From NCBI GenBank assembly GCA_020629965.1, contig JAHDCG010000027.1, positions 1-41,161 of the forward strand: a DNA stretch of 41,161 nt, read 5' to 3'. The notes under the pieces were generated by a model, which was given only the letters and a program-made list of their open reading frames with translations, did not search any database and was not told the DNA's origin. Source of the DNA: Saprospiraceae bacterium. Lineage in GTDB: Bacteria > Bacteroidota > Bacteroidia > Chitinophagales > Saprospiraceae. Positions within the stretch are counted from its first letter, which is position 1. Every line of letters starts with the position of its first letter. The translations under genes and the position numbers were made by a program. This document shows, one piece after another, positions 1,903 to 41,161 of this stretch.

Positions 1903-2175
1903 GAAGTTTGCTGCAAAAGCACCGGAAAAATTCTTTATTATTGCGCTTTTTATGAGGAGCGGCTTTAGAAACTATTTGATTTTAAGAGAGAATTGCCGAT
2001 AAACCAAAATTGTGTCAGACGCGGATTATTTTGACATACATTAAAAAATTTGCGTCCGACAAATCAAACCTCGAAATACGAGACAAGAGACCTTTGAAAA
2101 AAGAAATCAAAACTAAAGTATCTTACCGTCCTCAAGCAATCGTAAATCGTACATCGTAAATCGTACATCCAAGTT
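1903..2175. other. Divergent spacer before bioB with an inverted repeat and a phrase repeat
   Basis: This 273-bp gap separates the minus-strand aminopeptidase from bioB. It contains an interrupted inverted repeat, TGTCAGACGC (2013-2022) against GCGTCCGACA (2052-2061), with only one mismatch in the ten-base arms. It also contains the direct repeat CGTAAATCGTACATCGTAAA (2141-2160, continuing to 2169) that recurs in other spacers of the window. No clear TAnnTTTG promoter for bioB is visible. The inverted repeat could be an operator, but it does not resemble the BirA operator I know. Confidence 0.5.
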
Positions 2176-9677: not shown

Positions 9678-10134
9678 CGTTGCACTACGACGTCTTGCTG
9701 TGAGAAAACCACGCAATCAATTAAAAAAATCTCATTCAGGCATAAAACGAAAGCCCCTCGTACATCGTAAATCGTACATCGTCAATCGCTCCCGTTGCAC
9801 TGCGACTTCTTGCTGTGAGAAAACCACGCAATCAATTAAAAAATCTCATTCAGGCATAAAATGAAAACCCCTCGTACATCGTAATTCGTACATCGTCAAT
9901 CGCTCCCGTTGCAATGCGATATGATGCTGTGAAAAAACGAAGCAACCAATTAAAAAATCTCATTCAGGCAAAAAACGAAAACCCCTCGTACATCGTAAAT
10001 CGTACATCGTCAATCGCTCTCGTTGCAATGCGATATGATGCTGTGAAAAAACGAAGCAACCAATTAAAAATCTCATTCAGGCAAAAAACGAAAGCCCCTC
10101 GTACATCGTAATTCGTAAATCGTACATCGTAAAT
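9678..10134. repeat. Four-copy 114-bp tandem repeat
   Basis: Units start at 9678, 9793, 9907 and 10021 (spacing 115, 114, 114). Each runs CGTTGCA..., CTGTGAGAAAACCACGCAA or a close variant, ATCTCATTCAGGCA, CCCCTCGTACATCGTA, and then the TCGTACATCG phrase. Units 1-2 and units 3-4 form two more similar pairs (TGAGAAAACCACGC versus TGAAAAAACGAAGC). The array ends exactly at the stop codon of the subtilisin gene. The wider gap 9433-9677 contains another cluster of the ACGAATTACGATGTACG phrase (9514-9545) and no gene I can support. Confidence 0.9.
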
Positions 10135-13556: not shown

Positions 13557-16500
13557 CTACCTTACCAAAGTCACATCTCCCCTAATCACCTCCGTCCGTC
13601 CGTCAACGAAAAGTACCCGCGCCGTGTAAACAAAAACCGCGTTGTTCATGCGTTCTTCGCGCATCCGACCGTTCCAACCGAGGTTGGGGTCATTGGGGGC
13701 GAAGTCCTCATTTTGGAAAACCAAATTGCCCCAACGGTCGAAAATCATCAGACTTTGGATGCTGAGAACTTGCCTTGCGTCTGCGTAAATGGTGAACGCG
13801 TCGTTAATGCCGTCGTCGTTCGGACTGAAAGCATTTGGGACGTAAATACGAGCTTCGCGGTTGACGGTAATCAGAATGTCGTCACTGACCGAGCAGCCGA
13901 GACTGTCCTGCAAAAACAAAGTGTAAACCGTTGACTCCGAGGGACTTGCAAGTACGGTAGTCGTCGTGTCGTTGTCGAGCGAGTCGGTCGGCGTCCAACG
14001 CAGGATTTCAAAGTCAAAAAGATTTGTGGCGGCGTCGATGAGGTAACTTTCACCCTGCAAAATCTCTTGGTCGTCGCCCAAAAAGAGGAAAGGCGCGTCG
14101 GCGGCGGGTACGTTGACGGTCTGACTGCCGAAACCGTCCGCGCTGCCCGTAATGCCGACTTCGTAATTGCCGGCGGAGAAGCCCGTCAGCACAATCGGAA
14201 AGTTGCTGAACGTACCGCGATTTTCACCGTCAACGGTGACAATGAAAGGCGGCGTACCGTTAAAAATCGTGTCGATGACGATGTTGCCGTTGTTGTCGCT
14301 GAAGCAATCGGTCTCAAAACCGGTCGCGGAAAAATCAATCGAAAAAGTCAGATTGACCGTCACGATACTGTCGCAACCCGTGACCGCCGCGCCGGGCAAT
14401 GTCACCGTTCCCGACGGATTGTCGAGGTCAAAAACGGTCGTGCCGACGGTAACGGACTCGCCGGGTTCTAAGTTGATTTCCAACGTACCCGTAGTCGGCG
14501 GCGTGAAGGTCGCATTCATGGTCAAAATACTGTCGCAACCGTTAAACGCCGCATTTTCAAAAGTGAAAACCGCCGTCGAATTAGCTTCGTTTAAAGTCGT
14601 ACCGTTGATGACGACGCTTTCACCGGTGCAAAGTACAGTGTCTAAAGTGCCGAAGGTATTTTCTAAAAAGGTCAAACTGACCACGGCAATACTATCGCAG
14701 CCGGCGGCGGAAGGTACGTCGAGAATTTGCGTACCCGTCGGATTGTCCGCGTCGTAGGTTTCGCCTTCGATTTGCAGACTTTCGCCGGGACAAAGGGTTT
14801 GGTTGATTTCCGCGACGGCGGGTGCGTAAAAACTCGTGCTGACATTCACAATCGAGTCGCAGCCGAGGTAAGAACCGTTCTCGAAAAGTTCGGTACCCGT
14901 CAGATTATCCGCGCCGTATTCGGTGCCGTTAATGATTTCGGTTTCGCCTTCGCAAAGCAACAAATCAAGGTCGTTTACGACGCTTTCGACGAAAGTTAAA
15001 GCGACATTCACCGTCGAGTCGCAGCCGTTAAAACTACCGTTTTCAAACAGCACGCTACCCGTCGGATTGCTCTCGTCAAAAATTTCGTCGCCGACTTCCA
15101 AACTGCCGCCGGTGCACAACATTTGTGTCAAATCGGTCACGGGATTTTCGTAAAAACCGAGCGTAACATTGACCGTCGAGTCACAACCGTTGAAAGATGC
15201 GTCGTCGAGGATAACGGTGCCGGTCGGGTTGTTAACGTCAAAAATTTCGCCGTCAATAATAAAGTTTTCACCCTCGCAGACAAACGGATTTATGTCGGCA
15301 ACGGCAGGCGCGAAAAATTCTAAATCGACCTCCACAATAGAGTCGCAACCGAGAAAACTTCCGTTTTCAAAAATCACCAGACCCGTCGGATTATCGATGT
15401 CGAAAATTTCGGTATCGACCGTAAAAACAGCGTCGGGACAGTAGATGCCGTCGAGGTTGAAAATGATTTCATCGAAAAATTGCACCGTGACGTTGACCGT
15501 CGAGTCGCAGCCGTTGAAGGAAGCGTTTTCTAAAATTGCCGGACCGCTCGGATTGTCCGCGTCGAAGATTTGACCGCCGATTTCGACGCTGCCGCCCTCG
15601 CACAAATCGACGGTCGTGCTGCCGACGGCGGGCGGGTAGAAGAATAAATTGACAAAAATCGTTGAGTCGCAACCGAGGTAGGACGCATCGTCTAAAGTCA
15701 GGCTGCCCGACAGATTATCAGCGTCGTAAGTCGTGCCGTTGATGACCGCGCTGCCGCCTTCGCAAACAAAAGTGTCGATTTGTGAAAAGACCTCATCGCC
15801 GAAAGTCAAAGTGACATTGACCAAGGAATCGCAGCCTAAGAAACTCGCATCGGGCAAAAGAACGGAGCCGCTCGGGTTATCTTCATCGAAGATTTCGCCG
15901 CCGAGTTCGAGACTGCCTCCGGGGCAAAGAGCTTGCATTAAATCGCCTTCCGGCTGCGGGTAAAAATCTAAGGTGACATTCACCAAAGAGTCGCAACCTA
16001 AGAAACTCGCGTCGGGTAAAAGGACGCTGCCGCTCGTGTTGTCCGCGTCGAAAGTTTCGCCCTCGAAAGTAAAGGAGTCGCCTTGACAAATTATCGTGTC
16101 TAAATCGCCTTCCGGCTGCGGGTAAAAATCTAAGGTGACATTCACTAAAGAATCGCAACCTAAGAAACTCGCGTCGGATAAAAGAACGCTGCCGCTCGTG
16201 TTGTCCGCGTCGAAAGTTTCGCCTTCAAAAGTAAAAGAATCACCTTGACAAATTATCGTGTCTAAATCGCCTTCCGGCTGCGGGTAAAAGTCTAAGGTGA
16301 CATTTACCAAAGAATCGCAACCTAAGAAACTTGCTTCGGGTAAAAGGACGCTGCCGGTCAGATTATCCGCGTCGAAAGTTTCGCCTTCAAAAGTAAAAGA
16401 ATCACCTTGACAAATTATCGTGTCTAAATCGCCTTCCGGCTGCGGGTAAAAGTCTAAGGTGACATTTACTAAAGAATCGCAACCTAAGAAACTTGCGTCG

Positions 16501-19500
16501 GTGAGAAGAACGCTGCCGCTTGTGTTGTCTGCGTCAAAGGTTTCGCCCTCGAAAGTAAAGGAGTCGCCTTGACAAATTATCGTGTCTAAATCGCCTTCCG
16601 GCTGCGGGTAAAAATCCAACGTGACATTCACCAAAGAGTCGCAACCTAAGAAACTCGCGTCGGGTAAAAGAACGCTGCCGGTCAGGTTGTCCGCGTCGAA
16701 AGTTTCGCCTTCAAAGGAAAAAGAATCGCCTTCGCAGACTACGGGGTTGAAATCGCCTTCGGGCTGCGGCACAAATTCCAATGCTACCGTAACCAAGCTG
16801 TCGCAACCGATTGCATTTTGCAAAGTCACCTCACCGGTCGGATTATCCGCGTCGAAAATTTGCCCGCCCAATTCAAAAGTATCACCCGTGCAAAGCATCG
16901 GCATCGTCGCCGAAGTATCGGGCGCAGCGACAAATAAATCGGTGATAACCGCCTGTGGGTCAGCGGTATAAATCTCCAGACAACCGGGGTTCATCAGCGA
17001 AACGGGGTAAAATTCAATCGACTCCCCTTCCGCTAAATCGTAGTCTTCCGGGCAGATTTGAATAATTAAAAATTCATCGTTCGTATTATAAGGTGACGTG
17101 ACGCCCTGAATGGCAAGGTCGAGACTGTAAGGCCCGCCGCCGCTGAAATTATATTGCAAATCGTAGCAATCTCCTTCGCAAATCGTGGTGTCCTGCGGTA
17201 CGGGTTCGAGGAAGGGCGGGTCGTACCAGACCACGGGCACCCCCGGCGAAACGCTCAAACAGAAGTCATCCAAATTGACATTGCCGGTGCCGTCGTCCAT
17301 GCCGACGATGGCGGAAATGTAGTAAGTTTGCCCCGAAACGTAACCGTCCGGCGCGCCGAAAGTCGGGTCGTCGCTGATGTCGAAAACGGTTCCCAAAAAT
17401 TGATTGGGTAAATCGTGCAGCGCATATTGCAAAATGTCGCCGAATTGAAAAATCGGGTCTTCATCGACCACCGCCGTAATTTCTTCGTCAAAACAGGCAT
17501 TTAAAATCGGGAAAACGTCCAATTCGCCGGCGTCGTTGAAGCAGTTGCAGTTGGTAAAAAGAGCCACCTCGACCTCGCAGCCGTTGGCATCTTCCACGAC
17601 GTAAACCGTGAAAGTCTCGTTGGGAATGTCATCGGTCGTGACAAAACTGCCGAGAATGCTGCCCGCGCCCGAGGTCAGCGCGTAAGGAGGCGTACCGCCG
17701 GTAATTTGAAAAGTAGCGAAATAAGTGGAATTATCGTCGCTGCAATTATAGTTAATGTTTTCGAGCATCAGCAGCGGCGAAGGGGAAATCGTCACACTGT
17801 TGGGCGTATTGACGATACCCGGACAGGTTTGCGTACCGACACTCGACAGCGTGTAGGTCGTCTCGGTCGTCGGGCAGACCGTGTAGGTAAAACTGTCTTC
17901 GAAGGTCGTAAATTCATCGTCTTCACCGTTGCTGCCCGTGATTTCAAAAGTCACGTTGCCGATGCCGTCCAATTCAATGACAAAATCCACGCAATCTTCG
18001 CCGCAAATCGACTGACTCATACCGATAAGTGTGGCATTGGATTGGTCCCAAATCACCGGCTGCCCTTCGGTAATTACCAAACAGGGGTCGTCCAAGTCCA
18101 CGTTGCCCGTGCCGTCGTCATTACCGGCTATCGCCGAAATGTAGTATATCACATTCGGCTCCAACACCGCCGCATCCCAAGCAAAAGTCGGGGTATTATT
18201 GGTAAAAAAGACCTCGCCCAAAGTCTCGTCGGGGGTGCTGTGCAGGATAAATTGCACGATGTCGTCGTCGTCCAAAACCTCGTCGGTGTCGTCGTAAAAA
18301 CCGGTGACCGGACTGCCGACACAATTAGTTATCGGGTCTTGTTCCATGTCACCGAGCACGGTCGTACATTCAAATTCGCAGCCTTCCGCGCCCTCGATGA
18401 TGACGGTATTACAGCCGTTAGCGTCCGATATTTCAAAGAAATAAGTGCTTTCGTCCATAATCGGAACGGAGGTAAACACATTTGCCGAAAAATTACCGCC
18501 CGTGCCTACCACATTAAAAGGTTCCGTACCGGTGAGCGCGAAAGTGTATTGATAAGACGTATTATCATCGGCACAAATAAAGTCCTCGCTATTGACTGCT
18601 ACCTCGGGCGCGGCGTTTATCGTCGCTTCGTCGTTCACATTTTCAACAGTACAAGCTCCGGCGGAAATTTCCGTCAGCACCACGGTCGTCGTTGCGTTTA
18701 CGGTAATATCGACGCTTGCGGAATTGCTGTTTGTCGTTTGATTAACCGGCGTATTTCCGTTGACGGTATAGCTGAAAGCAAAAGGCGGCGTACCCGTAAA
18801 ATTAAAAGTCACCATCGCATCCTCTCCCGCACAAACCGCGTCGGGCGCGCTGACTGTACCCGTCGGGGCTTCCGTCCACATTACGGGTGTACCGGCGGCT
18901 ACGCTGAGGCAATCATCAGCGAAATCCGCATTTCCGCTGCCGTCGTTATTGCCGGCTACCGCCGAAATGTAGTACACCGTGCCCGTCGTCAAAAAGCCGC
19001 TTTGCGCAAAAGTCGGCGTCGGGCTGTAAATATTCGGATTGCTCAAAGCGGGATTTGGTGAGGTATGAATAATGTAGCCCAAAATGTCATCGCTTTCCAA
19101 ATCTTCGTCGCCGTTCGGCAGTCCGGTCGCGGGTTCTCCTTCACAAAACATCAGCGGCGGATTGGGAATTGTCATCGTACCCGAGTCGGTAAAGCAGTCG
19201 CAGTCGTTGTTATCGGCGACCGAAACCGGGCCGCAGTTATTCGCATCGTCGATGATAAAATTGTAAGCCGTGCCGCTCGGAATCGGGTCGGAAGTGTAGG
19301 TATTTCCGGAAATACCGTCCGTGCTGCCGTTGACGGTGTAAGGGGCGGTGCCGCCGGTAATTTCAAAAACCACCGTGTATTCCAAGCCGTTGCAATCGTC
19401 GGAAATCAGCGTAAAATCGGGTGCTTCGCTGACCGTCACGACCGCAGGACCACCGAGTATCGTACCCGTACAAGTGCCGGACGCGACCGACTCCAAAGAG

Positions 19501-22076
19501 TAAACGGTGGTCTCGGTCGGTGCGACTTGCAGGATAAACGGATTGTCGGAAGTGGTCTGCGCAGCTTGTGGTGTGCCGTTGAGATTATACACAAAGGTAA
19601 ACGGCGCATTTCCCGTAAAAAAGATTTCCAAATTGTAAGTCTCGCCGCTGCAAATCGTACCGTCGGCAATAATTTCCGCATTCGGTGCGGGGCTGACCGT
19701 CACCTCTGCACTGCTGCTGACCGTGCCCTCGCAACCGGCATCTTCGTAGCTGAACAAGGTGTAAGTCGAAGTATTCCCGGGGCTGACATTGAGAATGTAA
19801 GGGTTGTCATTGGTCGTAATCGGAGGCTGTGCGATATTGTCAATACGATAGACAAAAGTGTGCGGCGCATTACCCGTAAAGTCGATTTGAATATCCGCAT
19901 TTTCACCCGCGCAAATTGTCGCATCACCACTGATAACGGCTTGCGGAGCGGGATTGACGGTGACATCGACCTCGCCGTCCACAGCAAAATCACAGCCGCC
20001 TGCACTCGCATTGAGCAGCGTATATTCTGCGTTAAATGCGGGCATGACGTCGATGGTCGTGACCGCGTTCGGATTGTTGGTAAAATTTAGGGGACTGCCG
20101 CCGTTGGTGAGCAACACAAAATTAAAGGGCGCGGTGCCGCTGTCGAAAGTGACGGTGAGAGTGAGGGTTTCGCCTTGGCAAATGTTGTCGTTGCCGGAAA
20201 TGGTGGCAGTGCCGGTACTCGTGATAGTGAAATTTTCGCTGTGATTAACCGCTCCGACACAACCGCCGCTGCTGACTTGCAGAAGGGTAAATGTGGTATT
20301 TTCGGACACATTCGGTACAGTTACCGTTTCACCGTTAACGACACTAAATACTTGAGTAGTCGTAGCGGTGTTCGTAATTTCCACGGTCACATCGTACGTT
20401 GCGGTACCCGGAAGGGTGAAAGTCAAATCCACATCCGAACTGCCGCAGGCCTCGGTCGGACTGATGATTAAACCGGTATTGGCTTGATTAGGTCCGTCTT
20501 CTACAGTCAGAGTAATCGGCACGGGGTCGGACAGGCAGCCGGTTGTAAAGTCATTGACAACAGCATATATGACGGTAGTCGAGGTTGTAAAGGGATTGCT
20601 GTTGATGAAGCCCGTACCGTCGCTGTTTAGGTAAAAATCTACACCGGTACCCGGTTGATTATTGACATCGGGTATAATTGCCGTCAAATCAAAAGCAGCC
20701 GTCCCCGTACCGTCATCGCACGCCGAGGCGGAAGCAGCATTTGCCGGAGGCGCATTAATAATGTTCAAAGTAACCGTACCGGGTGTGCCGGGGCATTGCG
20801 GATTATTGCTGTCACCGACCAAGGCAAACACCTGACCGCCGTTTGCACTTTCAAAATTTGTAGGATTACCAACGGGATTATTGGTGGTCGGGTCGAGGTA
20901 ATAAACCACACTTTCGCCCGAGTTGCCGTTCACCATATTGTCTGCCTCGGTGAGGTCAAAAAATGCCGTACTCGAGGAGGAACAAGCGAACAGATCAGCC
21001 GGCATACCGTCAACGGGGCAAATGACATTAAATCCGAAAGATGAAGTAAAAGTCTGCGGACAACCCGGCGTCAGAGGATTGACAATGCCGGTAATGTTTG
21101 GTGTCTGACCGCAAGAAGTATCGTCGATAGTGTAGCTGAAATCATTGACGGTAGCAGGGGTATCGTTATCGGGCGGCGGCACAGTCTCGACGGCAGGACT
21201 GACACATCCGTTATTAGTGTAAGTATTATTGCCGAACTCATCTACAATCACAAAATCGCCGTTGGAACCTGAAAGACCGGGCGCATCCGTATCGTGTAAC
21301 CAAAGTGTATTACAACAAGAAAGACCGATATTAAACTCTCTGATACCGCTGCTCGAGGCATTGGAAAGGGCTCCCGCGCCTCGATCGCAATCGCTTTGCA
21401 TAACGTATGCAGTCTGACCGGTTGCACAAAACGCGGATAAATCCATATTAAATGTTTGTCCTGCACTCGGAAAGAAAATCACAACAGCACTTGCAGGCAC
21501 TTCATCTCCCGGTCCGACTGCTACAAAAGTACCGCCGCAACCCGGGTCGGAAGTGAGATTTGCCATCAAGGTCGGATTAGGGAATTGCCAGTTACACCCC
21601 TCGCCGGTATTGATATCGTCGTTAAAAGGAGGCATGTTATTATTCTGAAAAGGAAAGTCCACGTAAAAATCATTGACAGCAAAACCGCCTCCGCTGTTTA
21701 TCAGCATAAATTCATTATCAGCCTCCCCGCCGCCGCCTTCTACACAAGCATCGATGAGAGCACCTACCACAGTCGGACAGGGCATACAAGGTGTGATAGT
21801 CGTACTGCTGCCGCCCTCAATGTCCGAACTGCCGATGAATGTACCGCCGCCGTTGTAGGGGTTGTAATTTCCGTCACCGATGTACCAATCGATAGTACCG
21901 CCGTCGGGCAAATTTTCTCCCTCTACCGAAAAGGTTATCATATCCCCTTCGCAAACCTCTCCGCCGGGCAGGTCACTGTTGGACACAGTAATGGTCGGGC
22001 ACTGTGCCGACAGAGAAAAAGCTGTAATAAAAAGCAAGGATATTAAAAGTAAAAAACGCGATAACGTTTGACTCAT
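13557..22076 (-). CDS. Giant secreted repeat protein with gliding-motility-associated (CHU_C, T9SS type B) C-terminal domain
   Basis: A 2839-residue protein. A signal peptide (1-24, ending SLSAQ) is followed by a lamin-tail-like region (about 95-290, with ADNEFMLINSGGGF and LWLHDTDAPGLSGSNGDFV). A chain of Ig/SprB-like modules follows (about 330-950). Three homologous modules of about 280 residues then begin near residues 960, 1231 and 1514, each with TYYISAIAGNDDGTGNV-like and DDCLSV-like blocks. Sixteen tandem repeats of about 54 residues occupy about 1724-2579. A SprB-like module and the CHU_C sorting domain (about 2740-2839, with NAFSPNDDGINDAF and IFDRWGNLVFQNEDF) end the protein. CHU_C marks T9SS type B export and surface attachment. 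By family this is most likely an adhesin or cell-surface filament; gliding itself is not shown. The gene is transcribed alone, with a -7 element 67 bp upstream of the ATG. Confidence 0.9.
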   Translation of the reverse strand: MSQTLSRFLLLISLLFITAFSLSAQCPTITVSNSDLPGGEVCEGDMITFSVEGENLPDGGTIDWYIGDGNYNPYNGGGTFIGSSDIEGGSSTTITPCMPCPTVVGALIDACVEGGGGEADNEFMLINSGGGFAVNDFYVDFPFQNNNMPPFNDDINTGEGCNWQFPNPTLMANLTSDPGCGGTFVAVGPGDEVPASAVVIFFPSAGQTFNMDLSAFCATGQTAYVMQSDCDRGAGALSNASSSGIREFNIGLSCCNTLWLHDTDAPGLSGSNGDFVIVDEFGNNTYTNNGCVSPAVETVPPPDNDTPATVNDFSYTIDDTSCGQTPNITGIVNPLTPGCPQTFTSSFGFNVICPVDGMPADLFACSSSSTAFFDLTEADNMVNGNSGESVVYYLDPTTNNPVGNPTNFESANGGQVFALVGDSNNPQCPGTPGTVTLNIINAPPANAASASACDDGTGTAAFDLTAIIPDVNNQPGTGVDFYLNSDGTGFINSNPFTTSTTVIYAVVNDFTTGCLSDPVPITLTVEDGPNQANTGLIISPTEACGSSDVDLTFTLPGTATYDVTVEITNTATTTQVFSVVNGETVTVPNVSENTTFTLLQVSSGGCVGAVNHSENFTITSTGTATISGNDNICQGETLTLTVTFDSGTAPFNFVLLTNGGSPLNFTNNPNAVTTIDVMPAFNAEYTLLNASAGGCDFAVDGEVDVTVNPAPQAVISGDATICAGENADIQIDFTGNAPHTFVYRIDNIAQPPITTNDNPYILNVSPGNTSTYTLFSYEDAGCEGTVSSSAEVTVSPAPNAEIIADGTICSGETYNLEIFFTGNAPFTFVYNLNGTPQAAQTTSDNPFILQVAPTETTVYSLESVASGTCTGTILGGPAVVTVSEAPDFTLISDDCNGLEYTVVFEITGGTAPYTVNGSTDGISGNTYTSDPIPSGTAYNFIIDDANNCGPVSVADNNDCDCFTDSGTMTIPNPPLMFCEGEPATGLPNGDEDLESDDILGYIIHTSPNPALSNPNIYSPTPTFAQSGFLTTGTVYYISAVAGNNDGSGNADFADDCLSVAAGTPVMWTEAPTGTVSAPDAVCAGEDAMVTFNFTGTPPFAFSYTVNGNTPVNQTTNSNSASVDITVNATTTVVLTEISAGACTVENVNDEATINAAPEVAVNSEDFICADDNTSYQYTFALTGTEPFNVVGTGGNFSANVFTSVPIMDESTYFFEISDANGCNTVIIEGAEGCEFECTTVLGDMEQDPITNCVGSPVTGFYDDTDEVLDDDDIVQFILHSTPDETLGEVFFTNNTPTFAWDAAVLEPNVIYYISAIAGNDDGTGNVDLDDPCLVITEGQPVIWDQSNATLIGMSQSICGEDCVDFVIELDGIGNVTFEITGSNGEDDEFTTFEDSFTYTVCPTTETTYTLSSVGTQTCPGIVNTPNSVTISPSPLLMLENINYNCSDDNSTYFATFQITGGTPPYALTSGAGSILGSFVTTDDIPNETFTVYVVEDANGCEVEVALFTNCNCFNDAGELDVFPILNACFDEEITAVVDEDPIFQFGDILQYALHDLPNQFLGTVFDISDDPTFGAPDGYVSGQTYYISAIVGMDDGTGNVNLDDFCLSVSPGVPVVWYDPPFLEPVPQDTTICEGDCYDLQYNFSGGGPYSLDLAIQGVTSPYNTNDEFLIIQICPEDYDLAEGESIEFYPVSLMNPGCLEIYTADPQAVITDLFVAAPDTSATMPMLCTGDTFELGGQIFDADNPTGEVTLQNAIGCDSLVTVALEFVPQPEGDFNPVVCEGDSFSFEGETFDADNLTGSVLLPDASFLGCDSLVNVTLDFYPQPEGDLDTIICQGDSFTFEGETFDADNTSGSVLLTDASFLGCDSLVNVTLDFYPQPEGDLDTIICQGDSFTFEGETFDADNLTGSVLLPEASFLGCDSLVNVTLDFYPQPEGDLDTIICQGDSFTFEGETFDADNTSGSVLLSDASFLGCDSLVNVTLDFYPQPEGDLDTIICQGDSFTFEGETFDADNTSGSVLLPDASFLGCDSLVNVTLDFYPQPEGDLMQALCPGGSLELGGEIFDEDNPSGSVLLPDASFLGCDSLVNVTLTFGDEVFSQIDTFVCEGGSAVINGTTYDADNLSGSLTLDDASYLGCDSTIFVNLFFYPPAVGSTTVDLCEGGSVEIGGQIFDADNPSGPAILENASFNGCDSTVNVTVQFFDEIIFNLDGIYCPDAVFTVDTEIFDIDNPTGLVIFENGSFLGCDSIVEVDLEFFAPAVADINPFVCEGENFIIDGEIFDVNNPTGTVILDDASFNGCDSTVNVTLGFYENPVTDLTQMLCTGGSLEVGDEIFDESNPTGSVLFENGSFNGCDSTVNVALTFVESVVNDLDLLLCEGETEIINGTEYGADNLTGTELFENGSYLGCDSIVNVSTSFYAPAVAEINQTLCPGESLQIEGETYDADNPTGTQILDVPSAAGCDSIAVVSLTFLENTFGTLDTVLCTGESVVINGTTLNEANSTAVFTFENAAFNGCDSILTMNATFTPPTTGTLEINLEPGESVTVGTTVFDLDNPSGTVTLPGAAVTGCDSIVTVNLTFSIDFSATGFETDCFSDNNGNIVIDTIFNGTPPFIVTVDGENRGTFSNFPIVLTGFSAGNYEVGITGSADGFGSQTVNVPAADAPFLFLGDDQEILQGESYLIDAATNLFDFEILRWTPTDSLDNDTTTTVLASPSESTVYTLFLQDSLGCSVSDDILITVNREARIYVPNAFSPNDDGINDAFTIYADARQVLSIQSLMIFDRWGNLVFQNEDFAPNDPNLGWNGRMREERMNNAVFVYTARVLFVDGRTEVIRGDVTLVR
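14342..16905 (-). repeat. Sixteen tandem 54-residue (162-bp) coding repeats
   Basis: Each unit follows the pattern xCxGxSxxxxGExFDxDN, then a TGSVxLxDASFLGCDS-like block, then VNVTLxF and a linker such as YPQPEGDLDTI. Cys occurs at position 2 and in GCDS about 31 residues later. Five consecutive units between about 15941 and 16757 are almost identical at DNA level (same phrase at 15941, 16103, 16265 and so on, spacing 162). The outer units have diverged. The most C-terminal unit begins LEPGESVTVG and has lost the first Cys. Confidence 0.92.
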
Positions 22077-22353: not shown

Positions 22354-23180
22354 GGGGAACTTTCTCCGGGCTTGGGTTTGCGGTAAGTCTTGAATTTTTC
22401 GGTTCTTTCCTTCTGAAAAATCACGAAATTTAAGTTTACCCGTTTTGAAAATGAATGTAAATTCATAACGAATCTGAGGTTTGAAATTAGATGCTCCGGG
22501 GGTCGGGGGGTCTTTGAATACGGCTCTAAAACCCCTAACCTCCGCGACTAAAGTCGGGACAGGCCGGAGCGGGGAACTTTCTCCGGGCTTGGGTTTGCGG
22601 TAAGTCTTGAATTTTTCGGTTCTTTCCTTCTGAAAAATCACGAAATTTAAGTTTACCCGTTTTGAAAATGAATGTAAATTCATAACGAATCTGAGGTTTG
22701 AAATTAGATGCTCCGGGGGTCGGGGGGTCTTTGAATACGGCTCTAAAACCCCTAACCTCCGCGACTAAAGTCGGGACAGGCCGGAGCGGGGAACTTTCTC
22801 CGGGCTTGGGTTTGCGGTAAGTCTTGAATTTTTCGGTTCTTTCCTTCTGAAAAATCACGAAATTTAAGTTTACCCGTTTTGAAAATGAATGTAAATTCAT
22901 AACGAATCTGAGGTTTGAAATTAGATGCTCCGGGGGTCGGGGGGTCTTTGAATACGGCTCTAAAACCCCTAACCTCCGCGACTAAAGTCGGGACAGGCCG
23001 GAGCGGGGAACTTTCTCCGGGCTTGGGTTTGCGGTAAGTCTTGAATTTTTCGGTTCTTTCCTTCTGAAAAATCACGAAATTTAAGTTTACCCGTTTTAAA
23101 AACGAATGTAAATTCATAACGAATTTAAATTTTGAAGATAGATACTCCCCCGCTCCGGGGGTCGGGGGGTCTTCAATACG
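22354..23180. repeat. 217-bp tandem array, three full units and a diverged fourth
   Basis: Units start at 22354, 22571, 22788 and 23005, exactly 217 bp apart. Each begins GGGGAACTTTCTCCGGGC and contains AAATCACGAAATTTAAG, GATGCTCCGGGGGTCGGGG and CGACTAAAGTCGGGACAGG. Units 1-3 are nearly identical; unit 4 diverges after about 23090 and ends in CGGGGGTCGGGGGGTCTTC. The array fills most of the 1.19-kb gap between the giant protein gene and lysS. Open frames run through it on the minus strand, but 217 is not a multiple of 3. The same DNA is therefore read in different frames in successive units, and I do not regard them as genes. Confidence 0.95.
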
Positions 23181-29038: not shown

Positions 29039-29235
29039 AATAAGAATGACGATGTACGATTTACGATGTACGAATTACGATGTACGAATTACGATGTACG
29101 ATTCCACTTTTACCTTCTCACCTCTCACCTCTCACCTCAAAATCCCAAAACCCTCACGAAATAATCTAAAAAACTTCGTTTTCAGACTTTTTTCACCAAA
29201 AACGGGTAATTCCTCGCTTATTCGCTGCAAAATTA

Positions 29236-30761: not shown

Positions 30762-32870
30762 TCAATAAAACTTCACCAAAGTCACCACCAAAATAATCAG
30801 GAAAAATGCGGGAAAGTACGATGCTTTGAATATCTGATTGTCGTTGAAGTCGAAGATTTTACTCTTGTCTTTGGTGTAAGTAATCAAATTTGCCGTCGAG
30901 GTCACAAGCATGAAATAGGCGACAAAATAAAAGTACTCGATGTAAATCAAATCGGCGGTGACAATCTCCTTACGCATATCGATGTGCGAAAAAATCAGGA
31001 CGAAAAAGAAAGCCGCCATGCTTTCGATAATGCCTTGCCGTTCCTGTGTCTTGTGGCAGGCATAAATCAAAATGAAGACCATAATCAGTGTGACGAATAT
31101 AGGGATTAAATACGTCACAAAAGCATTGAGCAGCAAGCGGCGGGTGTGAACGTTGTAGTGCAGCACGGGCACCTCTTCAAAAAGTGCCTTTTGACCGTAG
31201 CCGAAATCAGAGTCATAAGTCTCCGTCGAGTAGTTGAAATAACTCTCTAAAATCTCGCTGCCGGGAATGCGAATGTCGGGATTTAAACCGCTTTTGCGCG
31301 AAGGATTGGTATATGTATAGCTCGCCAAATCCGGCGTTAAAATCAAATTGTCATTATTATCCGATGGCGTGATTCTAATGTTGATGTGTCGCTTATCCAG
31401 GGGGAAATCGGAGTAGTTCAAATTGAGCAGCAACGTCACCCGAAAATCCCAACCGACGAGCAGATAACCGGGTCCGGCGGCACTCGGTTCGATGATTTTG
31501 CGATAGGACTCCTCCAAATATTCCGCTTCGGAGAAAGGTGACATCTGCGGTAACTGTACGCCGATGCTGACTTCTTCCGCGAGGGCTAAAGGATATTTCT
31601 GCCAAATTTTTCCGCCGACGTTGAGGTTGTAGCTGTCCTGAAATTCCATGCGCTCGACATACATACCCGTCGGTATCGGTGTCGGTTTAGCGGTTTTGAG
31701 CGTGTCGGCTTTCAGATGTTGCGCGGTGATAAACTGACTCAATGCGGTCAGGTCGGTTATCGGCGGACTTTTCTCGTCGCCGTGTACTTTTTTGTCGGTG
31801 TGCTGCAGTTGACCGACTAAGAAAATATTTGCGATTAAAAGCACCGATGCCAGGAGGCTCAAAATCCAAATTTCCCGCTCGTCCAAGTAGTCTTTGCCGA
31901 AAATTATCCCCATAATACAGACCAACAAAAAGGACAAAGAAATCGCAATTCTGATAAATTTTCGGTTCAATACTTTCGAGTCGTCCAAAAAGTCTTCCTT
32001 ATAAAAAAACAGACCGATGCCCCAACCCGACGTCGGTATTTTATCATAGAAAAAGAGTGTTTCTTCCCCGCTTTCTTCCTCTGCAAATTCAACTTTTCCC
32101 GACTCGCCCGCCAACAGTTCCGCGTAGGCATTTGCCAATACCGGATTGGTTTCCGTCTGCACTTCTCCTAATTTTGTCGTGCCCACGTACTCATTCACCG
32201 GGTGTGCCAAAAACGTGCCTTCCTTCGAGGTTATCAGTCCGTAGCCCGTCTTGCCGAGAGCAAGTTTGTGCACCAGTTCTTTAAAGCCGCTCGCCACAAA
32301 ACTCATCGTAATCGTGCCGCGTACCCGGCCTTTTTTTTCGCCGCTTGTGTAATAAAACGGAATGCCGTAATCGACGTACCAATCCTGCGCCGCCTTCGCA
32401 AAGTAAGGCTCTACCCACTTCGCGCCCTCGTCCCGCACCTCGGTGTACCAAGCCGTCCCGCTGACGTTTTTGTCAAAGTAATCGTAGCTTTTTCCGACGT
32501 ACAAATAGTCCTGCGTGCCCTTGTTGTAGTACGGACAAAACAGCCGTTTTTCATCGGAAAACGCACCCGGTTCGTAGCAAGCCGTCACGCCCTGTATGCC
32601 CGCAATACTTTCCGCGCTTTCTTTGATAATGCGTTCAATTTCCGCTTCGGTGTAGTCGTTACTGCCGAATAAATCCGCCAGTCGATTGCCTTCCGCCGTG
32701 ATTTCGGACAGTATTGTATCGACTCGGTCGCGCAGTAAGGCGGTCGTCTCCGCGCCTTCCTTTTGGGCGTAGGCTTCTCTTTGTTTTTGAAATTGCAGGT
32801 AATCAAAAATCAAGTAGGCTGTCCATAAAAACAGAATAATACCGATACCGTAGAAGAGTTTTTTAAACAT
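30762..32870 (-). CDS. Predicted 7-TM receptor channel: periplasmic dCache sensor fused to a pentameric ligand-gated ion channel module
   Basis: Part by part in the 702-residue protein: TM1 at about 5-22. A periplasmic dCache-like domain at about 35-295 shows GTAWYTEVRDEGAKWVEPYF (138-157), TGYGLITSKEGTFLAHP (208-224) and the closing SGWGIGLFFYKEDF (281-294). TM2 lies at about 306-326 and TM3 at 336-355. A second periplasmic beta-rich domain (about 360-575) contains GWDFRVTLLLNLNYSDFPLD; FPLD at 489-492 matches the invariant Pro-loop motif (F/Y)P(F/L)D of pentameric ligand-gated channels. Then come M1 (578-603, with Pro590), M2 (612-630), M3 (638-663, with YFYFVA as in GLIC M3) and M4 (684-700). 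The positions give cytoplasmic N-terminus, both sensors outside and C-terminus outside, as the channel fold requires. No Cys pair brackets FPLD, as in bacterial homologues. Channel assignment is inference from motifs and topology; a channel-derived signalling receptor is the alternative. Confidence 0.72.
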   Translation of the reverse strand: MFKKLFYGIGIILFLWTAYLIFDYLQFQKQREAYAQKEGAETTALLRDRVDTILSEITAEGNRLADLFGSNDYTEAEIERIIKESAESIAGIQGVTACYEPGAFSDEKRLFCPYYNKGTQDYLYVGKSYDYFDKNVSGTAWYTEVRDEGAKWVEPYFAKAAQDWYVDYGIPFYYTSGEKKGRVRGTITMSFVASGFKELVHKLALGKTGYGLITSKEGTFLAHPVNEYVGTTKLGEVQTETNPVLANAYAELLAGESGKVEFAEEESGEETLFFYDKIPTSGWGIGLFFYKEDFLDDSKVLNRKFIRIAISLSFLLVCIMGIIFGKDYLDEREIWILSLLASVLLIANIFLVGQLQHTDKKVHGDEKSPPITDLTALSQFITAQHLKADTLKTAKPTPIPTGMYVERMEFQDSYNLNVGGKIWQKYPLALAEEVSIGVQLPQMSPFSEAEYLEESYRKIIEPSAAGPGYLLVGWDFRVTLLLNLNYSDFPLDKRHINIRITPSDNNDNLILTPDLASYTYTNPSRKSGLNPDIRIPGSEILESYFNYSTETYDSDFGYGQKALFEEVPVLHYNVHTRRLLLNAFVTYLIPIFVTLIMVFILIYACHKTQERQGIIESMAAFFFVLIFSHIDMRKEIVTADLIYIEYFYFVAYFMLVTSTANLITYTKDKSKIFDFNDNQIFKASYFPAFFLIILVVTLVKFY

Positions 32871-36691: not shown

Positions 36692-39600
36692 TTATTCCTC
36701 TCGCAGCAAGGTAACATCACCGCTGAAAACTTCCGTGTGTCCGTCGGTGAAAAGTATTTCCGCTTTCCAAACGTAAACGCCGGTGTTCATCATCTCGCCG
36801 TTGTGGTCGCCGCGCCAGCCGAAATCTTCGTCATCCGGCGACGCATTAAAGATTTGAAAGACGGGTTCTCCCCACCGCGTATAAACCGATAAGTTTAAAA
36901 CGGTCTGCACATTTTCGCCGCCCTGCACGTAAAAAACGTCGTTGTTTTCATCGTTATTCGGTGAAAATCCGGTCGGCAGAAAAACGCGATAACCTTTGTC
37001 CACAAACACGGTCAGCGAAGTACTCACCGTGCAGCCCTCTTCGTTCACTGCCGAAAATGTGTATTCGGTCGTTTCCGTCGGCGTCGCATTGGTAACGATG
37101 CAGGAGTCGCAGGAAATGCCGGCCCCCTCCCATACCCACGCTGCGGGCGTAAAATTCGGCTCGGGGTCTAAGGTCAGACTATCGCCTAAAGTGATGGTTG
37201 GCGTTGCGCCCAAATCCGCAAAAAGCGGAGGCACGCCGGGAAAATTCAGCGTATCCGTCGCCGTGCATCCGTTGGCATCTTCGATAGTCAGCTCGTACTG
37301 CCCCGATGCCAGACCGGTGAAAACGGATGTTGTCGTCGCCTCTTCCGCATTCAGGCTGTACACGTAAGGTGCCGTGCCGCCGCTGACCTCGGTGACGCTA
37401 ATTATACCCGTCTCGTTCAGACAGCTCAATTCCGTTTGTTCAACGGCGAAAGTAAGCGAGTCGGGTTCGGTCAATTCTACGGTCAGCGTTTCGGTGCAGC
37501 CGTTGATGTCGGTGACGGTGACGGTTTGGCTGCCTGCCGTCAGGTCGTTATTAAACGGTCCGGTCACGCCGTTACTCCAGAGGTAGGTCAGAGTGCCGGT
37601 CCCGCCGCTTGCCGTGACTTCCGCCGTGCCGTCGCTGCCCGCCGCGCAACTGACATTATTGATGCTCGAAGCCGAAACAGTAACGGCTGCGGGACTTTCG
37701 ACGGCGACCGTCAGGTCGATTTCCAGACCTTCGTCGTCCGTTAAGACAATCGCATAATTTCCGGCGGGCAAATTTTCCGTTAAAATCACTTCTCCGAAAC
37801 CGGCAATTTCTCCGGCGCCGTTTTGCCCGTTGCCCGAATAAGTGTAGATGAATGGCGGATTTCCTTCCGTAGCCGATAAGGTAAAAGAGCCGTCATTTCC
37901 GCCGAAACAAGTAACGCCGCTCGCCTGTAAATCAGCCACAATGCCGCATGCCGTGACCGATAAATTAAGCATAACGATAGAGTCGCAACCTGCTTGATTT
38001 TGTAAAATGACTTCGTAATCGCCCGTCGCATCGAAGGTTTCGTTGCCGAGGGTGAAGGTCTCGCCGGTACATAAATCGACGGCAAGGTCGGTGATTTCAT
38101 TGGTCAAAACCGTCAAATCCAAATTCACCAAACTGTCGCAACCCGCAGCGGTCATCAGGTTCACGGCGTATTGACCGGTCGCATCGAAGGTTTCGGTGCC
38201 GACGGTAAAGGTCTCACCCGCACACACTTCAGCGGTCAGCGGAAAGACTTCATTCGGCAGCACCTCTAAATATAAAAGCACGATGCTGTCGCAGCCGTTT
38301 TCGTTCAAAAGCTCGATAACATAATCGCCGGCGGCGGTAAATTCCTGCGTATCGACAAAAACCGACTCGCCGCCGCAAATGGTTTCTTCAATGGTTTCCT
38401 CGTCTAATTCGTACACGGTCAGCGACAGATTAACAAGACTGTCACAGCCCGACGCTGCCGTTAATTCTATGCTGTAATCACCCGCTGCGGTAAATATTTC
38501 GTTCCCGATTTCCGCTTCTTCGCCCTCGCAGATAAACATTTCAACGTCCTCGACGGCGAAGGCAATGACCGTTAAATTCAAATCTACAATACTGTCGCAG
38601 CCGGCAAAGGAGGTCAGATTGATGACGTAATTTCCGCTTGCGTCAAAGGTTTGCGTGCCGATGGTAATTTCTTCACCTTCGCACAAGGTCTCGTTTAAAG
38701 ACTCGGTCTGCGGTTGCAGAACGGTCAAATTCAGATTTACCAAACTGTCACAGCCGCCCGTAGCGGTCAAGGAAACGGAGTAATCGCCCGCTGCGGTAAA
38801 TTCTTCGGTATCGACGAAAAAACTCTCGCCCTCACAGATAGTTTCGGTCAAATTTTCGGTCAAAACGTCGATGACGCTCAAATCCAAATTTACGATGCTG
38901 TCGCAGCCCGCCGTCGTTTGCAGATTGACAACGTAGCTGCCGGTTGCGTTAAAATCTTCGGTGCCGACGGTAAATATTTCGCCGCTGCAAATTTGCTCGA
39001 CCAAGTCGATTTCGTAGCTTTCGTTGACGGTTAATGCCAAATTTACCAAACTGTCGCAACCCGAAGCGGCGGTTAACTCGACCTGATAATCGCCCGTCTC
39101 GGTAAAAGTTTCGCTGCCGACGGTAAAGGTCGCGTCGCCGCAAAGGGACTCGACGAGGTTGGTTTCTATGACTTCGACGACCGTCAAATTCAAATCGACG
39201 ATAGAATCGCAGCCGTTTTGAGTGATGAGATTTACCGTATAATCGCCCGTCGCGTTAAAATCTTCGGTGCCGACGGTGAAGATTTCGCCCGCACAAATAA
39301 CTTCGGTCAGTGCCGGAGAAAAAGTCGGGTTGACCGTCAAATTCAAATTTACCAAACTGTCACAGCCCGCGACCGCCGTCAGCGGCACGGAATAATCGCC
39401 CGCCGTCGTAAAAGTTTCTGTGCCGACGGTGACGCTTTCGCCTGCACAAATTACCTCGTTTAAATCGGTGACAATGGAAGTCAAAACCGTCAAATCCAAA
39501 TCGACGATGGAGTCACAACCGCTTTCCGCCGTGAGGTTGACGGTGTACATGCCGGTCGCGTTAAAAGTTTCCGAACCGACCGTATAGCTGTCGCCGTCGC

Positions 39601-41161
39601 AGATGCTTTCGACGAGGTCGGTTTGCAAAAAGTCCAAAACGGTGAGGTTTAAATCGACGATGGAGTCGCAGCCGTTCACGGCGGTCAGACTAACGCTGTA
39701 ATCGCCGTCCGCATTAAAACTTTCCGAACCGACCGTAAAGCTTTCACCGTCGCAAATAACCTCCGTCAAGTCGGTTTGCAAGGCGGTTACTACCGTCAAA
39801 TCCAGAGAAACAATACTGTCACAACCCGCTGAAGAAGGCAAAGTAACTTCGTAATTTCCGTCGGTATTGAAGGTTTCCGTGCCGACCGTAAAGCCCTCGC
39901 CGTCGCAAATAACTTCAGTCAAATCGGTGGTCAAAAACTGCAAAACTTCCAAATCCAAACTCACGATACTGTCGCAGCCGGCGGCAGACATCAGCGTGAC
40001 ATCGTAATTTCCCGTTGCATTGAAACTTTCGCTGCCGACCTCGAAAGTATCGCCTTCGCAAATGGTTTCGGTCAGCGCTGTGGAGAGAAAAGTCAGCACT
40101 TCCAAATCGAGATTAATGATGCTGTCGCAGCCGCTTTGCGCGGTGAGTGTGACGCTGTAATTGCCCGTCGCGTCGAAACTTTCACTGCCGACTGTGTAGC
40201 TTTCGCCTTCGCAAATCATGGCTTCGACCTCCGTGGTCAGAAAAGTCAATACTTCCAAATCCAAATTGACCAAACTGTCGCAGCCGCTTTGCGAAGTCAA
40301 ATTAATGGTATAATCGCCCGTTGCATCGAAGGTTTCCGTACCTACGGTGAAGCTTTGTCCGTCGCAAATGACCTCGTTTAAATCTTCGGTCAAAACGTTT
40401 AAAACCGTCAAATCCAAATTCACGAGACTGTCGCAGCCGCCCGCTGAGGTGAGTGTTACGCTGTAGTTTCCGTCAGCGGTAAAAGTCTCCGTACCGACCG
40501 TAACGCTTTGCCCGTCGCAGATGGTTTCGGCGATATTTTCGGTGATGACATCGACTACGGTGAGGTCGAGATTGACAAGACTGTCGCAGCCGTTTTCGTC
40601 GGTCAAAGTCACGTCGTACATGCCCGTCGCATTGAAATTTTCCGTGCCGACGCTGTACATTTCGCCCGTGCATATCGACTCGACGAGGTTGGTTTGGGAA
40701 AGAGCGTTGACGGTCAATTCGAGATTAACGAGACTGTCGCAGCCCGCCGCGTCGGTCAGCGGCACTTGGTACATGCCCGTCGCGTCGAAGGTTTCGGTAC
40801 CGACGGTGAAGGTAGTGCCGCCGCAAATTTCTTCGTTCAAAAAAGTCTCTTGCATCGGCGTAACGGTGAGGTCTAAATTGACGACTTCGCTGCACTCTCC
40901 GTCGTCGGCGGGCAGCAAGACATTATACATGCCTGTTTCGTCAAAACTTTCGTCGCCGACTTCGTAAGTTTCGCCTTCGCATATCACGGCGACTTCGTCG
41001 GTCGCGGCGGCGGGGGTGACATTGACCGTCAGGAAGGTGGTACTGTCGCAGCCGGCTTGGTTGGTAAAAGTCTCTTCGTACAGTCCGGCCTCGGTGATGG
41101 TTTGACCGCCGAATTCGATGCTTTCGCCCTCGCAAATGGTCGTTTCTTCATCGGCAATGTC
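36692..41161 (-). CDS. Second giant T9SS type B repeat protein (5' end beyond the window)
   Basis: The reading frame is open to the window edge. A GTG at 40987 is not the start, because the 58 codons upstream continue the same repeats (ICEGESIEFGGQTITEAG, then NQAGCDSTTFLTVNV). At least 1489 residues are visible. From the visible N-terminal side there are about 21 tandem 51-residue repeats, each with a pattern near ICEGETFTVGTETFNATG followed by GCDSLVNLDLTV. Then come three SprB-like modules (coordinates about 37000-37950, with CFGGNDGSFTLSATEGNPPF and NVSCAAGSDGTAEV). The CHU_C sorting domain closes it (FLPTGFSPNNDENNDVFYVQ, YTRWGEPVFQIF, VFSGDVTLLREE). SprB-like modules and CHU_C are known from surface adhesins exported by T9SS. 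The same Cys-repeat family builds the C-terminal half of the 2839-residue protein at 13557. The missing N-terminus prevents any statement on the signal peptide. Confidence 0.9.
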   Translation of the reverse strand, partial: DIADEETTICEGESIEFGGQTITEAGLYEETFTNQAGCDSTTFLTVNVTPAAATDEVAVICEGETYEVGDESFDETGMYNVLLPADDGECSEVVNLDLTVTPMQETFLNEEICGGTTFTVGTETFDATGMYQVPLTDAAGCDSLVNLELTVNALSQTNLVESICTGEMYSVGTENFNATGMYDVTLTDENGCDSLVNLDLTVVDVITENIAETICDGQSVTVGTETFTADGNYSVTLTSAGGCDSLVNLDLTVLNVLTEDLNEVICDGQSFTVGTETFDATGDYTINLTSQSGCDSLVNLDLEVLTFLTTEVEAMICEGESYTVGSESFDATGNYSVTLTAQSGCDSIINLDLEVLTFLSTALTETICEGDTFEVGSESFNATGNYDVTLMSAAGCDSIVSLDLEVLQFLTTDLTEVICDGEGFTVGTETFNTDGNYEVTLPSSAGCDSIVSLDLTVVTALQTDLTEVICDGESFTVGSESFNADGDYSVSLTAVNGCDSIVDLNLTVLDFLQTDLVESICDGDSYTVGSETFNATGMYTVNLTAESGCDSIVDLDLTVLTSIVTDLNEVICAGESVTVGTETFTTAGDYSVPLTAVAGCDSLVNLNLTVNPTFSPALTEVICAGEIFTVGTEDFNATGDYTVNLITQNGCDSIVDLNLTVVEVIETNLVESLCGDATFTVGSETFTETGDYQVELTAASGCDSLVNLALTVNESYEIDLVEQICSGEIFTVGTEDFNATGSYVVNLQTTAGCDSIVNLDLSVIDVLTENLTETICEGESFFVDTEEFTAAGDYSVSLTATGGCDSLVNLNLTVLQPQTESLNETLCEGEEITIGTQTFDASGNYVINLTSFAGCDSIVDLNLTVIAFAVEDVEMFICEGEEAEIGNEIFTAAGDYSIELTAASGCDSLVNLSLTVYELDEETIEETICGGESVFVDTQEFTAAGDYVIELLNENGCDSIVLLYLEVLPNEVFPLTAEVCAGETFTVGTETFDATGQYAVNLMTAAGCDSLVNLDLTVLTNEITDLAVDLCTGETFTLGNETFDATGDYEVILQNQAGCDSIVMLNLSVTACGIVADLQASGVTCFGGNDGSFTLSATEGNPPFIYTYSGNGQNGAGEIAGFGEVILTENLPAGNYAIVLTDDEGLEIDLTVAVESPAAVTVSASSINNVSCAAGSDGTAEVTASGGTGTLTYLWSNGVTGPFNNDLTAGSQTVTVTDINGCTETLTVELTEPDSLTFAVEQTELSCLNETGIISVTEVSGGTAPYVYSLNAEEATTTSVFTGLASGQYELTIEDANGCTATDTLNFPGVPPLFADLGATPTITLGDSLTLDPEPNFTPAAWVWEGAGISCDSCIVTNATPTETTEYTFSAVNEEGCTVSTSLTVFVDKGYRVFLPTGFSPNNDENNDVFYVQGGENVQTVLNLSVYTRWGEPVFQIFNASPDDEDFGWRGDHNGEMMNTGVYVWKAEILFTDGHTEVFSGDVTLLREE
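37957..41161 (-). repeat. About 21 tandem 51-residue (153-bp) coding repeats
   Basis: Twenty complete units plus one partial unit at the edge, all 51 residues. Cys sits at position 2 (IC or LC) and at position 30 (GCDS). One unit (GECSE instead of GCDS) has a shifted Cys. DNA identity between units is moderate, unlike the near-identical block in the other giant gene, so this array looks older or more diversified. Confidence 0.93.

Follow-up and report, generated by a model that had tools for sequence, protein, structure and literature searches.

The window analyzed here, a stretch of 41,161 nucleotides from a Saprospiraceae bacterium, carries a gene that a first-pass annotation had read as a dCache sensor fused to a pentameric ligand-gated ion channel (pLGIC). 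This locus raises the question of whether sensor and channel are indeed joined in one chain and, if they are, by what route the sensor could act on the pore.

The gene and its sensor domain

The gene proposed at 30762-32870 is real, as the minus strand contains an intact single open frame there (30762..32870) of 702 codons plus a stop, with an ATG start and no internal stop. Judging from the open reading frame listing and the relatives, the 702-aa product is built, in this order, of TM1, a dCache domain, TM2, TM3, a pLGIC-type ligand-binding domain (LBD), and M1 to M4; all features described below lie on the same minus strand. The nearest relative is a gene of the same genus with 79% protein identity and a dN of 0.15 (dS is saturated and gives no ratio), which suggests a constrained protein rather than a chance frame. 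The downstream neighbor is a convergent trpA (Trp_syntA, E 1.7e-73), and 186 nt upstream, on the same strand as the channel gene, lies the gene of a small charged protein with a weak EF-hand match. Promoter-like sites (6, against a shuffled mean of 3.9) and terminator-like sites (5 against 3.5) are barely above the shuffled values.

The dCache domain spans residues 27 to 300 (31971..32792). Its presence, as first annotated, is borne out by Pfam, where dCache_1 scores 62.6 bits (E 5.4e-17; gathering cutoff, 45; best stretch, residues 128 to 286), and by a profile of eight Cache domains of the family, which matched the Methanosarcina dCache structure 3LI8 (E 1e-17) over profile positions 3 to 271 of 275. 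The sensor fold is thus the same, at near full length, as that of the Methanosarcina histidine kinase dCache domains 3LI8 and 3LIB, with the difference that those drive a kinase while the dCache of the window protein sits on a pLGIC module.

According to the accessible text of one study, amine- and amino acid-binding dCache domains have a ligand-contact Asp in common, an Arg holds the carboxyl group of the ligand in the amino acid-binding ones, and 3LIB is one of the amine-binding dCache_1AM domains (PMC10104139). When aligned by eye, without a structure, the column of this key Asp is occupied in the window protein by Thr188, which is invariant in the six close members, and T139 takes the position expected for the amino acid-binding Arg, two residues before a Trp. 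Neither the dCache_1AM (amine) nor the dCache_1AA (amino acid) motif could be found in the window protein in this by-eye alignment register, so we predict no amine or amino acid ligand for it. The same column is an Asp, also by eye, in two more distant members, L095 and L096.

Relationship of the C-terminal half to pLGICs

The Pfam match to Neur_chan that had been expected for the C-terminal half was not obtained. Neither Neur_chan_LBD nor Neur_chan_memb matched the window protein, NCBIfam likewise failed for this half, and among the 15 members of set A3 only two stand-alone proteins gave any score (L023, LBD, 25.9 bits against a cutoff of 26; L025, memb, 13 bits against 28.1). HMM searches of the PDB with the fused family alone returned no pLGIC, one giving an unrelated match (E 1.4) and the other being empty, and a search of the source genome with PF02931 matched nowhere, with the controls silent as well. 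Because Pfam gave no match, the case for the channel half was made by profile-profile comparison.

For this, we used a profile of the fused proteins only (A4), one of eight stand-alone Bacteroidota pLGICs (A5), and a combined profile (A6). The stand-alone set is itself clearly of the pLGIC type, as A5 found GLIC (3EAM) in the PDB at E 6.5e-27. Aligned with hhalign over the full module, A4 and A5 gave 98.9% across 246 columns, and the six close sequences alone still gave 97.0% against the stand-alone set. With the LBD alone (residues 399 to 578; 31137..31676), the score was 97.9% (E 3.4e-13; 95 columns), compared to 1.4% for the reversed profile, at most 0.92% for 20 column shuffles, and 0.15% for the dCache domain of the family itself. 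These comparisons identify the channel half as a pLGIC homolog, as the first reading had it. A direct match to GLIC, at best 5.8e-10, was obtained with a profile that included the stand-alone rows L023 and L025 and so was not counted as independent.

Searches of genomes connect the two kinds of protein as well. The C-terminal half recovered matches in 17 of 395 genomes of the phylum, namely, the source genome, 14 of family f37, G203, and a 58-residue fragment in G424, whereas A4 found 18 of 395, comprising the source genome, the 14 of f37, and three with stand-alone pLGIC-like proteins (1.8e-7, 4.2e-6, and 1.2e-5). Family f37 probably consists of green sulfur bacteria, since the FMO antenna protein was present in all five f37 genomes tested and in neither of two others. 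In the reverse direction, L023, the stand-alone protein of G203, was searched against 198 genomes and matched 8, among them its own source and that of the window; the E value was 9.3e-5 for the window gene and 9.6e-6 for a fused f37 gene.

A pLGIC LBD is marked by a Pro-loop (Y/F-P-x-D) and ends in a basic residue; in the window protein these are F489-P490-L491-D492 (31395..31406) and R578 (31137..31139). The FPLD motif reported earlier in the second beta-rich domain is therefore at residues 489 to 492, and P490, D492, and R578 are invariant in all 22 aligned rows. Structure prediction lends minor support only, because both AF2 models, built from an input of only six sequences, were poor (pLDDT 53.3 and 49.9, with a better helical block at residues 2 to 70, pLDDT 68 to 86). 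The best 50 PDB matches of a Foldseek search with the C-terminal half of the model were all pLGIC- or AChBP-type chains, with GLIC and AChBP on top (best E 3.7e-4; TM 0.31; eight matches at E ≤0.001).

Four hydrophobic segments follow the LBD: M1 (residues 584 to 602, containing P590; 31065..31121; hydropathy and alignment), the putative pore helix M2 (residues ~610 to 632, of uncertain register; 30975..31043; alignment), M3 (residues ~638 to 664; 30879..30959; a low-confidence AF2 helix with a weak hydropathy peak of 1.41), and M4 (residues 680 to 698; 30777..30833; hydropathy). The homology of GLIC and ELIC to the window protein covers the LBD and M1 to M4, through intermediates, although the M2 of the window protein is not securely alignable to theirs, and we know of no Cache domain or TM1-TM3 in either. 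A YFYFVA stretch in M3 had been likened to GLIC, but in the profile alignment, read by eye, the YFVA of GLIC falls several residues further along M3, and the likeness looks coincidental.

Three extra hydrophobic segments are conserved ahead of the ligand-binding domain

Seven hydropathy peaks are present in the window protein (residues 5 to 23, 305 to 323, 334 to 352, 584 to 602, 614 to 632, 636 to 654, and 680 to 698), in agreement with the seven-segment topology originally proposed. The first three precede the LBD. TM1 (residues 5 to 23; 32802..32858) begins a long stalk helix predicted by AF2 at residues 2 to 70. TM2 (residues 305 to 323; 31902..31958) is the exit helix of the dCache domain (AF2 helix, 298 to 323), and TM3 (residues 334 to 352; 31815..31871), found by hydropathy, by AF2 (helix, 331 to 353), and by hhalign of the hairpin, would bring the chain back outside. 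A linker (residues 353 to 398; 31677..31814), placed by the alignment and with a possible helix at ~374 to 390 predicted by AF2 at low confidence, leads to the first LBD strand.

The three segments ahead of the LBD were found by hydropathy in 19 of 19 fused proteins (residues ~1 to 45, 305 to 347, and 334 to 381), that is, the window protein, five close relatives (L003 to L007), and the products of 13 of the 14 f37 loci. The remaining f37 locus, L021, was left out since its open frame continues past the usual start, and L002, the same gene as L003 (G001:C427 = CALDUB010000427.1), was counted once. At the hydropathy threshold used, the M3 of L006 and the M4 of seven f37 members went undetected, and an extra marginal segment appears directly before TM2 in four f37 members. 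The same three segments occur in further full-length members from outside these groups, which are L093, a 697-aa frame on a large plasmid of Vibrio sp. THAF191d, and L095 and L096, from a pair of genomes that share a genus and belong to another order. Both the composition and order of the domains and the conservation of the three extra segments can be read directly from these proteins.

In a pLGIC subunit, the LBD and the C terminus need to be outside. From topology, we infer that the N terminus is inside, which with three segments before the LBD would place the dCache domain (periplasmic, following TM1 and preceding TM2), the LBD (also periplasmic, after the TM2-TM3 hairpin), and the C terminus all outside. 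Since the chain would cross the membrane twice between dCache and LBD, the two extracytoplasmic domains would not be joined directly.

The gene is rare near its own lineage (2 of 60 genomes, the source and a congener). The A6 profile finds a pLGIC in 35 of 395 genomes of the class (the source included) and in 59 of 241 genomes of the order of G203. A search of viral contigs gave no match, and a phage search gave a single one, limited to the Cache part. The dCache_1 scores of the relatives vary: L095 (62.8 bits) and L096 (56.6 bits) exceed the cutoff of 45, the Vibrio protein stays below it (36 bits), and so do all four f37 members scored, L009, L011, L020, and L022 (15.9, 20.3, 16.0, and 24.9 bits), so that by Pfam the Cache assignment in f37 is weak; it draws as well on aligning these proteins with the window protein over their full length. 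Comparison of the window protein with its five close relatives showed the membrane domain to be the most conserved part (94, 79, 68, 77, and 77% identity), followed by the LBD (86, 65, 71, 59, and 59%), the dCache domain (71, 63, 61, 62, and 55%), and the TM2-TM3 region (78, 53, 53, 53, and 47%). Because identity falls in this order, we read the family as a conserved putative channel with a faster-evolving sensor.

Five proteins (L097, L098, and L102 to L104; frames of 471 to 493 aa) possess the three N-terminal segments, the LBD, and M1 to M4 with only ~40 to 50 residues from TM1 to TM2, which leaves no room for a Cache domain, and a Cache scan of two of them (L097 and L098) found none. Their TM2-TM3-linker region aligns with that of the Cache proteins at 95.2% by hhalign (reversed, 2.6%; 20 shuffles, at most 0.71%). 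L094, encoded on an Acaryochloris marina plasmid, has a single segment at its N terminus; its alignment with L097 starts at residue 107, covers TM3 and what follows, and shows 34% identity.

In the other extended pLGICs inspected, the hairpin is absent. Eight long-frame proteins (L082 to L085, L099, L100, L105, and L106), part of the long-frame matches found, likewise combine a long sensor-like N-terminal domain with a pLGIC module, but their N terminus has one anchor, and the TM2-TM3 pair of the window family is missing ahead of the LBD. When the hydropathy threshold is lowered, a second, marginal segment appears in L084 at residue 92. The two proteins scanned, L082 and L085, gave weak Peripla_BP_6 matches under the cutoff. 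L101, a pLGIC extended with TPR repeats, has no hairpin either.

An unrooted tree was built from 45 pLGIC modules with the N-terminal extensions removed, hand-picked from 75 frames and including 7 of the 14 f37 loci. The 16 Cache-containing seven-helix proteins, the five Cache-less ones, and the Acaryochloris protein fall together on one side of a branch with support of 100/100, and five of the periplasmic binding protein-like proteins described above form a separate group. The Cache-less proteins nest among the Cache-containing ones (98/97), and constraining the latter to one clade was mildly rejected (AU p 0.032). The Vibrio protein forms a long branch, and the tool warned of long branches meeting. 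Provided that the root lies outside the group, the rooting we favor, the Cache-less members would have lost the sensor and kept the helices.

Proposed mechanism, alternatives, and gene neighborhood

The best explanation, to which we give a probability of about 0.7, is that the product is a pLGIC fitted with a Cache sensor, that it belongs to a distinct clade and has seven membrane helices in each subunit, and that the Cache domain would modulate the pore via the hairpin. Weighing against this reading are the missing Neur_chan and fused-only PDB matches, the poor AF2 models, the weak TM-only similarity and insecure M2 register, the sub-cutoff Cache scores of the f37 members scored and of L093, the Arg that three f37 rows carry at an M2 position which is acidic in others, and the Thr in the ligand-contact Asp column of the six close members. 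As the C-terminal-half and A6 profile searches found one pLGIC match in the genome of the window, a homopentamer is proposed, and by homology five identical subunits would form the putative channel. The fusion and topology of the first-pass annotation are supported, and its pentamer with five Cache domains is expected by homology. In such a homopentamer, five Cache sensors would flank the pore, each held there by its own helices and not joined directly to the LBD. Binding of a putative Cache ligand would shift TM2, this shift might be passed via the TM2-TM3 hairpin to the LBD, to the outer face of M1, M3, and M4, or to both, and the movement of the hairpin could modulate the pore through the membrane, with the LBD possibly serving as a second input.

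A more far-reaching version, which we put forward tentatively and at somewhat less than even odds, is that these proteins make up a new structural class of pLGIC. Each pentamer would have as many as 35 membrane helices, and an outer ring of TM1-TM3 hairpins would transmit Cache-ligand binding laterally through the membrane, while the Cache-less members, derived by sensor loss on the favored rooting, may use the ring to sense the membrane or a partner. The retention of the helices without the sensor in some relatives hints at a signal passing to the pore through the membrane. The family represents a well-studied sensor type mounted on putative channels and offers natural comparison sets (proteins with the Cache kept, proteins with the helices and no Cache, and the Acaryochloris protein with its single N-terminal helix), with which it becomes testable whether a sensor gates a pentameric channel laterally via membrane helices rather than via the LBD. 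Cache sensors whose specificity is known might also be used, by way of this family, to engineer ligand-gated channels.

The fusion of Cache and pLGIC is itself not new. As far as the accessible text goes, Tasneem et al. reported in 2004 fusions of MCP-N and Cache domains to prokaryotic pLGICs (ART-LGICs) in Methanosarcina, Cytophaga, and Microbulbifer, placed the extra domains between the signal peptide and the LBD, and suggested homopentamers and allosteric interplay (PMC549065). The window protein corresponds to their third architecture, a Cache-type domain N-terminal to the LBD and four TM segments in one chain. We give an even chance to the reading that it is an ordinary fusion of this kind, the Cytophaga, Microbulbifer, and Methanosarcina members sharing an unremarked hairpin; the domains named in 2004 are the same and the distributions overlap (Bacteroidota and Gammaproteobacteria), yet the accessible part of that paper describes signal peptide, extra domains, LBD, and four TM segments and no hairpin between Cache and LBD (PMC549065). 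Among the titles and abstract openings of the best literature matches listed, in which subscription papers mostly do not figure, we found no description of an intervening membrane hairpin. In the portions available, Jaiteh et al. (2016) discarded the terminal parts and called work on architecture promising (PMC4795631), a census of Cache domains has VWA_N and VGCC_alpha2 as its only entries for ion channels (PMC4822843), and a 2025 paper on DeCLIC considers the N-terminal sensor domains of pLGICs to be little known, DeCLIC being the only one partly characterized (PMC12664993). DeCLIC, another pLGIC, likewise has an N-terminal regulatory region in the periplasm, but this consists of two jelly-roll lobes, a fold other than Cache, packed on the peripheral ECD, and its TMD is described as M1 to M4, with no extra TM segments mentioned in the accessible text, compared to three in the window family (PMC9897478 and PMC12664993).

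A second alternative, that Cache is a module for assembly, anchoring, or localization and that gating is left to the pLGIC LBD, lipids, or protons, seems unlikely to us. It would fit the five clade members that have no room for a Cache domain and the failure of the amine and amino acid motifs in the window protein, but the domain has been kept at 55 to 71% identity across the five close relatives and is recognizable in L095 and L096, over the cutoff, and in the Vibrio protein, under it. Moreover, in the accessible text the N-terminal domain of DeCLIC is said to affect gating kinetics (PMC9897478).

That the protein is a pLGIC-derived receptor without conduction, which senses, changes shape, and passes its output to a partner while the pore helix has degenerated, we regard as quite improbable. 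The membrane domains of the fused and stand-alone proteins are weakly similar (TM-only hhalign, 35.7%; reversed, 0.34%), the register of M2 is unclear, and in the window group M2 is rich in Phe without a secure match to the canonical 0' or 9' residues, all of which would suit such a receptor, as would the envelope-related neighbors described below. Against it, conservation peaks in the membrane domain (68 to 94% identity), acidic residues near the inner end of M2, E610 and E616, are invariant in the six close members, and 8 of the 14 other clade rows have Glu or Asp at one aligned M2 site. At that site, three f37 rows have Arg, and L093, L095, and L096 have neither. R633, near the outer end, is common to all 20 aligned clade rows. 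A cation-selective M2 was considered and is not borne out by the wider clade alignment, in which the acidic site varies and the prime register is unsettled; for the window group, the acidic residues suggest no more than a lean towards cations.

Finally, that the C-terminal half is no pLGIC and resembles one by chance in its beta-rich domain and four helices is hardly credible, as the missing Pfam and fused-only PDB matches are outweighed by full-module and LBD-only scores far over the controls (the latter alone contradicts it), by matches in both search directions, by the invariant Pro-loop P/D and terminal R, and by the pLGIC/AChBP matches of Foldseek.

As to the gene neighborhood, a single conserved operon partner was considered and rejected. 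In four of the six close members (L003, L005, L006, and L007), the channel gene is preceded at a distance of 3 to 40 nt by a porin-like gene (split into two frames in L005), which is absent beside the channel gene in the window and in L004. The porin label is weak, with C-terminal aromatic residues and, in L003 only, sub-cutoff matches to Porin_O_P and DcaP; Pfam found no porin match in the L005 fragment or the L006 and L007 genes, and the L003 copy, searched against 14 genomes, was found in its own source only and not in the genome of the window. Other partners occur elsewhere. The f37 neighbors were called with Pfam on a subset and by BLAST for the rest, and in four of six f37 loci a gene for a two-partner secretion exoprotein follows the channel gene, accompanied in three by a ShlB-type transporter and separated in two by an intervening UPF0114 gene, while the remaining two loci have different neighbors. 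There is no universal neighbor, and many neighbors are envelope related. In Vibrio, the channel gene overlaps its upstream neighbor by 4 nt, in a run of genes that includes an SBP_bac_3 solute-binding protein.

Cysteine pair of the Cache domain

The Cache domain has two cysteines, C98 and C112 (window 32535-32579), which the alignment places at the same positions in all six close members (the window protein and relatives L003 to L007). This pair is a candidate disulfide.

Genes beside the Cache-pLGIC gene

Immediately 5' of the Cache-pLGIC gene, four of the six close members code for a porin-like protein, a label that is weak (L003:3743-4900, L005:372-1580, L006:2870-4150, and L007:3669-4880), with an aromatic C-terminal residue in all four products. 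A search of the window's genome for this porin-like gene gave no matches. Among the six green-sulfur-type loci, four (L087, L088, L089, and L092) contain a two-partner secretion exoprotein gene after the Cache-pLGIC gene, accompanied in three of them by a ShlB-type transporter gene and in two with a UPF0114 gene in between. The Vibrio plasmid member lies within a run of tightly overlapping genes (L093:2705-6956) that includes an SBP_bac_3 solute-binding protein, and this run resembles the PBP-II neighborhoods described by Tasneem et al. (PMC549065).

Other N-terminal layouts

Five seven-helix pLGICs (L097, L098, L102, L103, and L104) keep the three extra membrane helices, TM1 to TM3, with a space too small for a Cache domain. 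At another locus (L101:1202-3064), TPR repeats precede the pLGIC module, and the start of the protein is signal-peptide-like; this architecture is not known to have been described before.

Other features of the window

The window codes at 13557-22076 and 36692-40987 for giant proteins that both carry CHU_C type IX secretion tails; the second also contains SprB repeats and PKD-type domains. A 217-bp unit is repeated in 3.6 near-identical copies (99% matches) at 22354-23124, and the several listed ORFs that overlap it are probably not real genes. Short tandem repeats of 7/14 bp, related to one another in sequence, are found at several sites across the window (2138-2169, 9758-9788, and 29044-29101).
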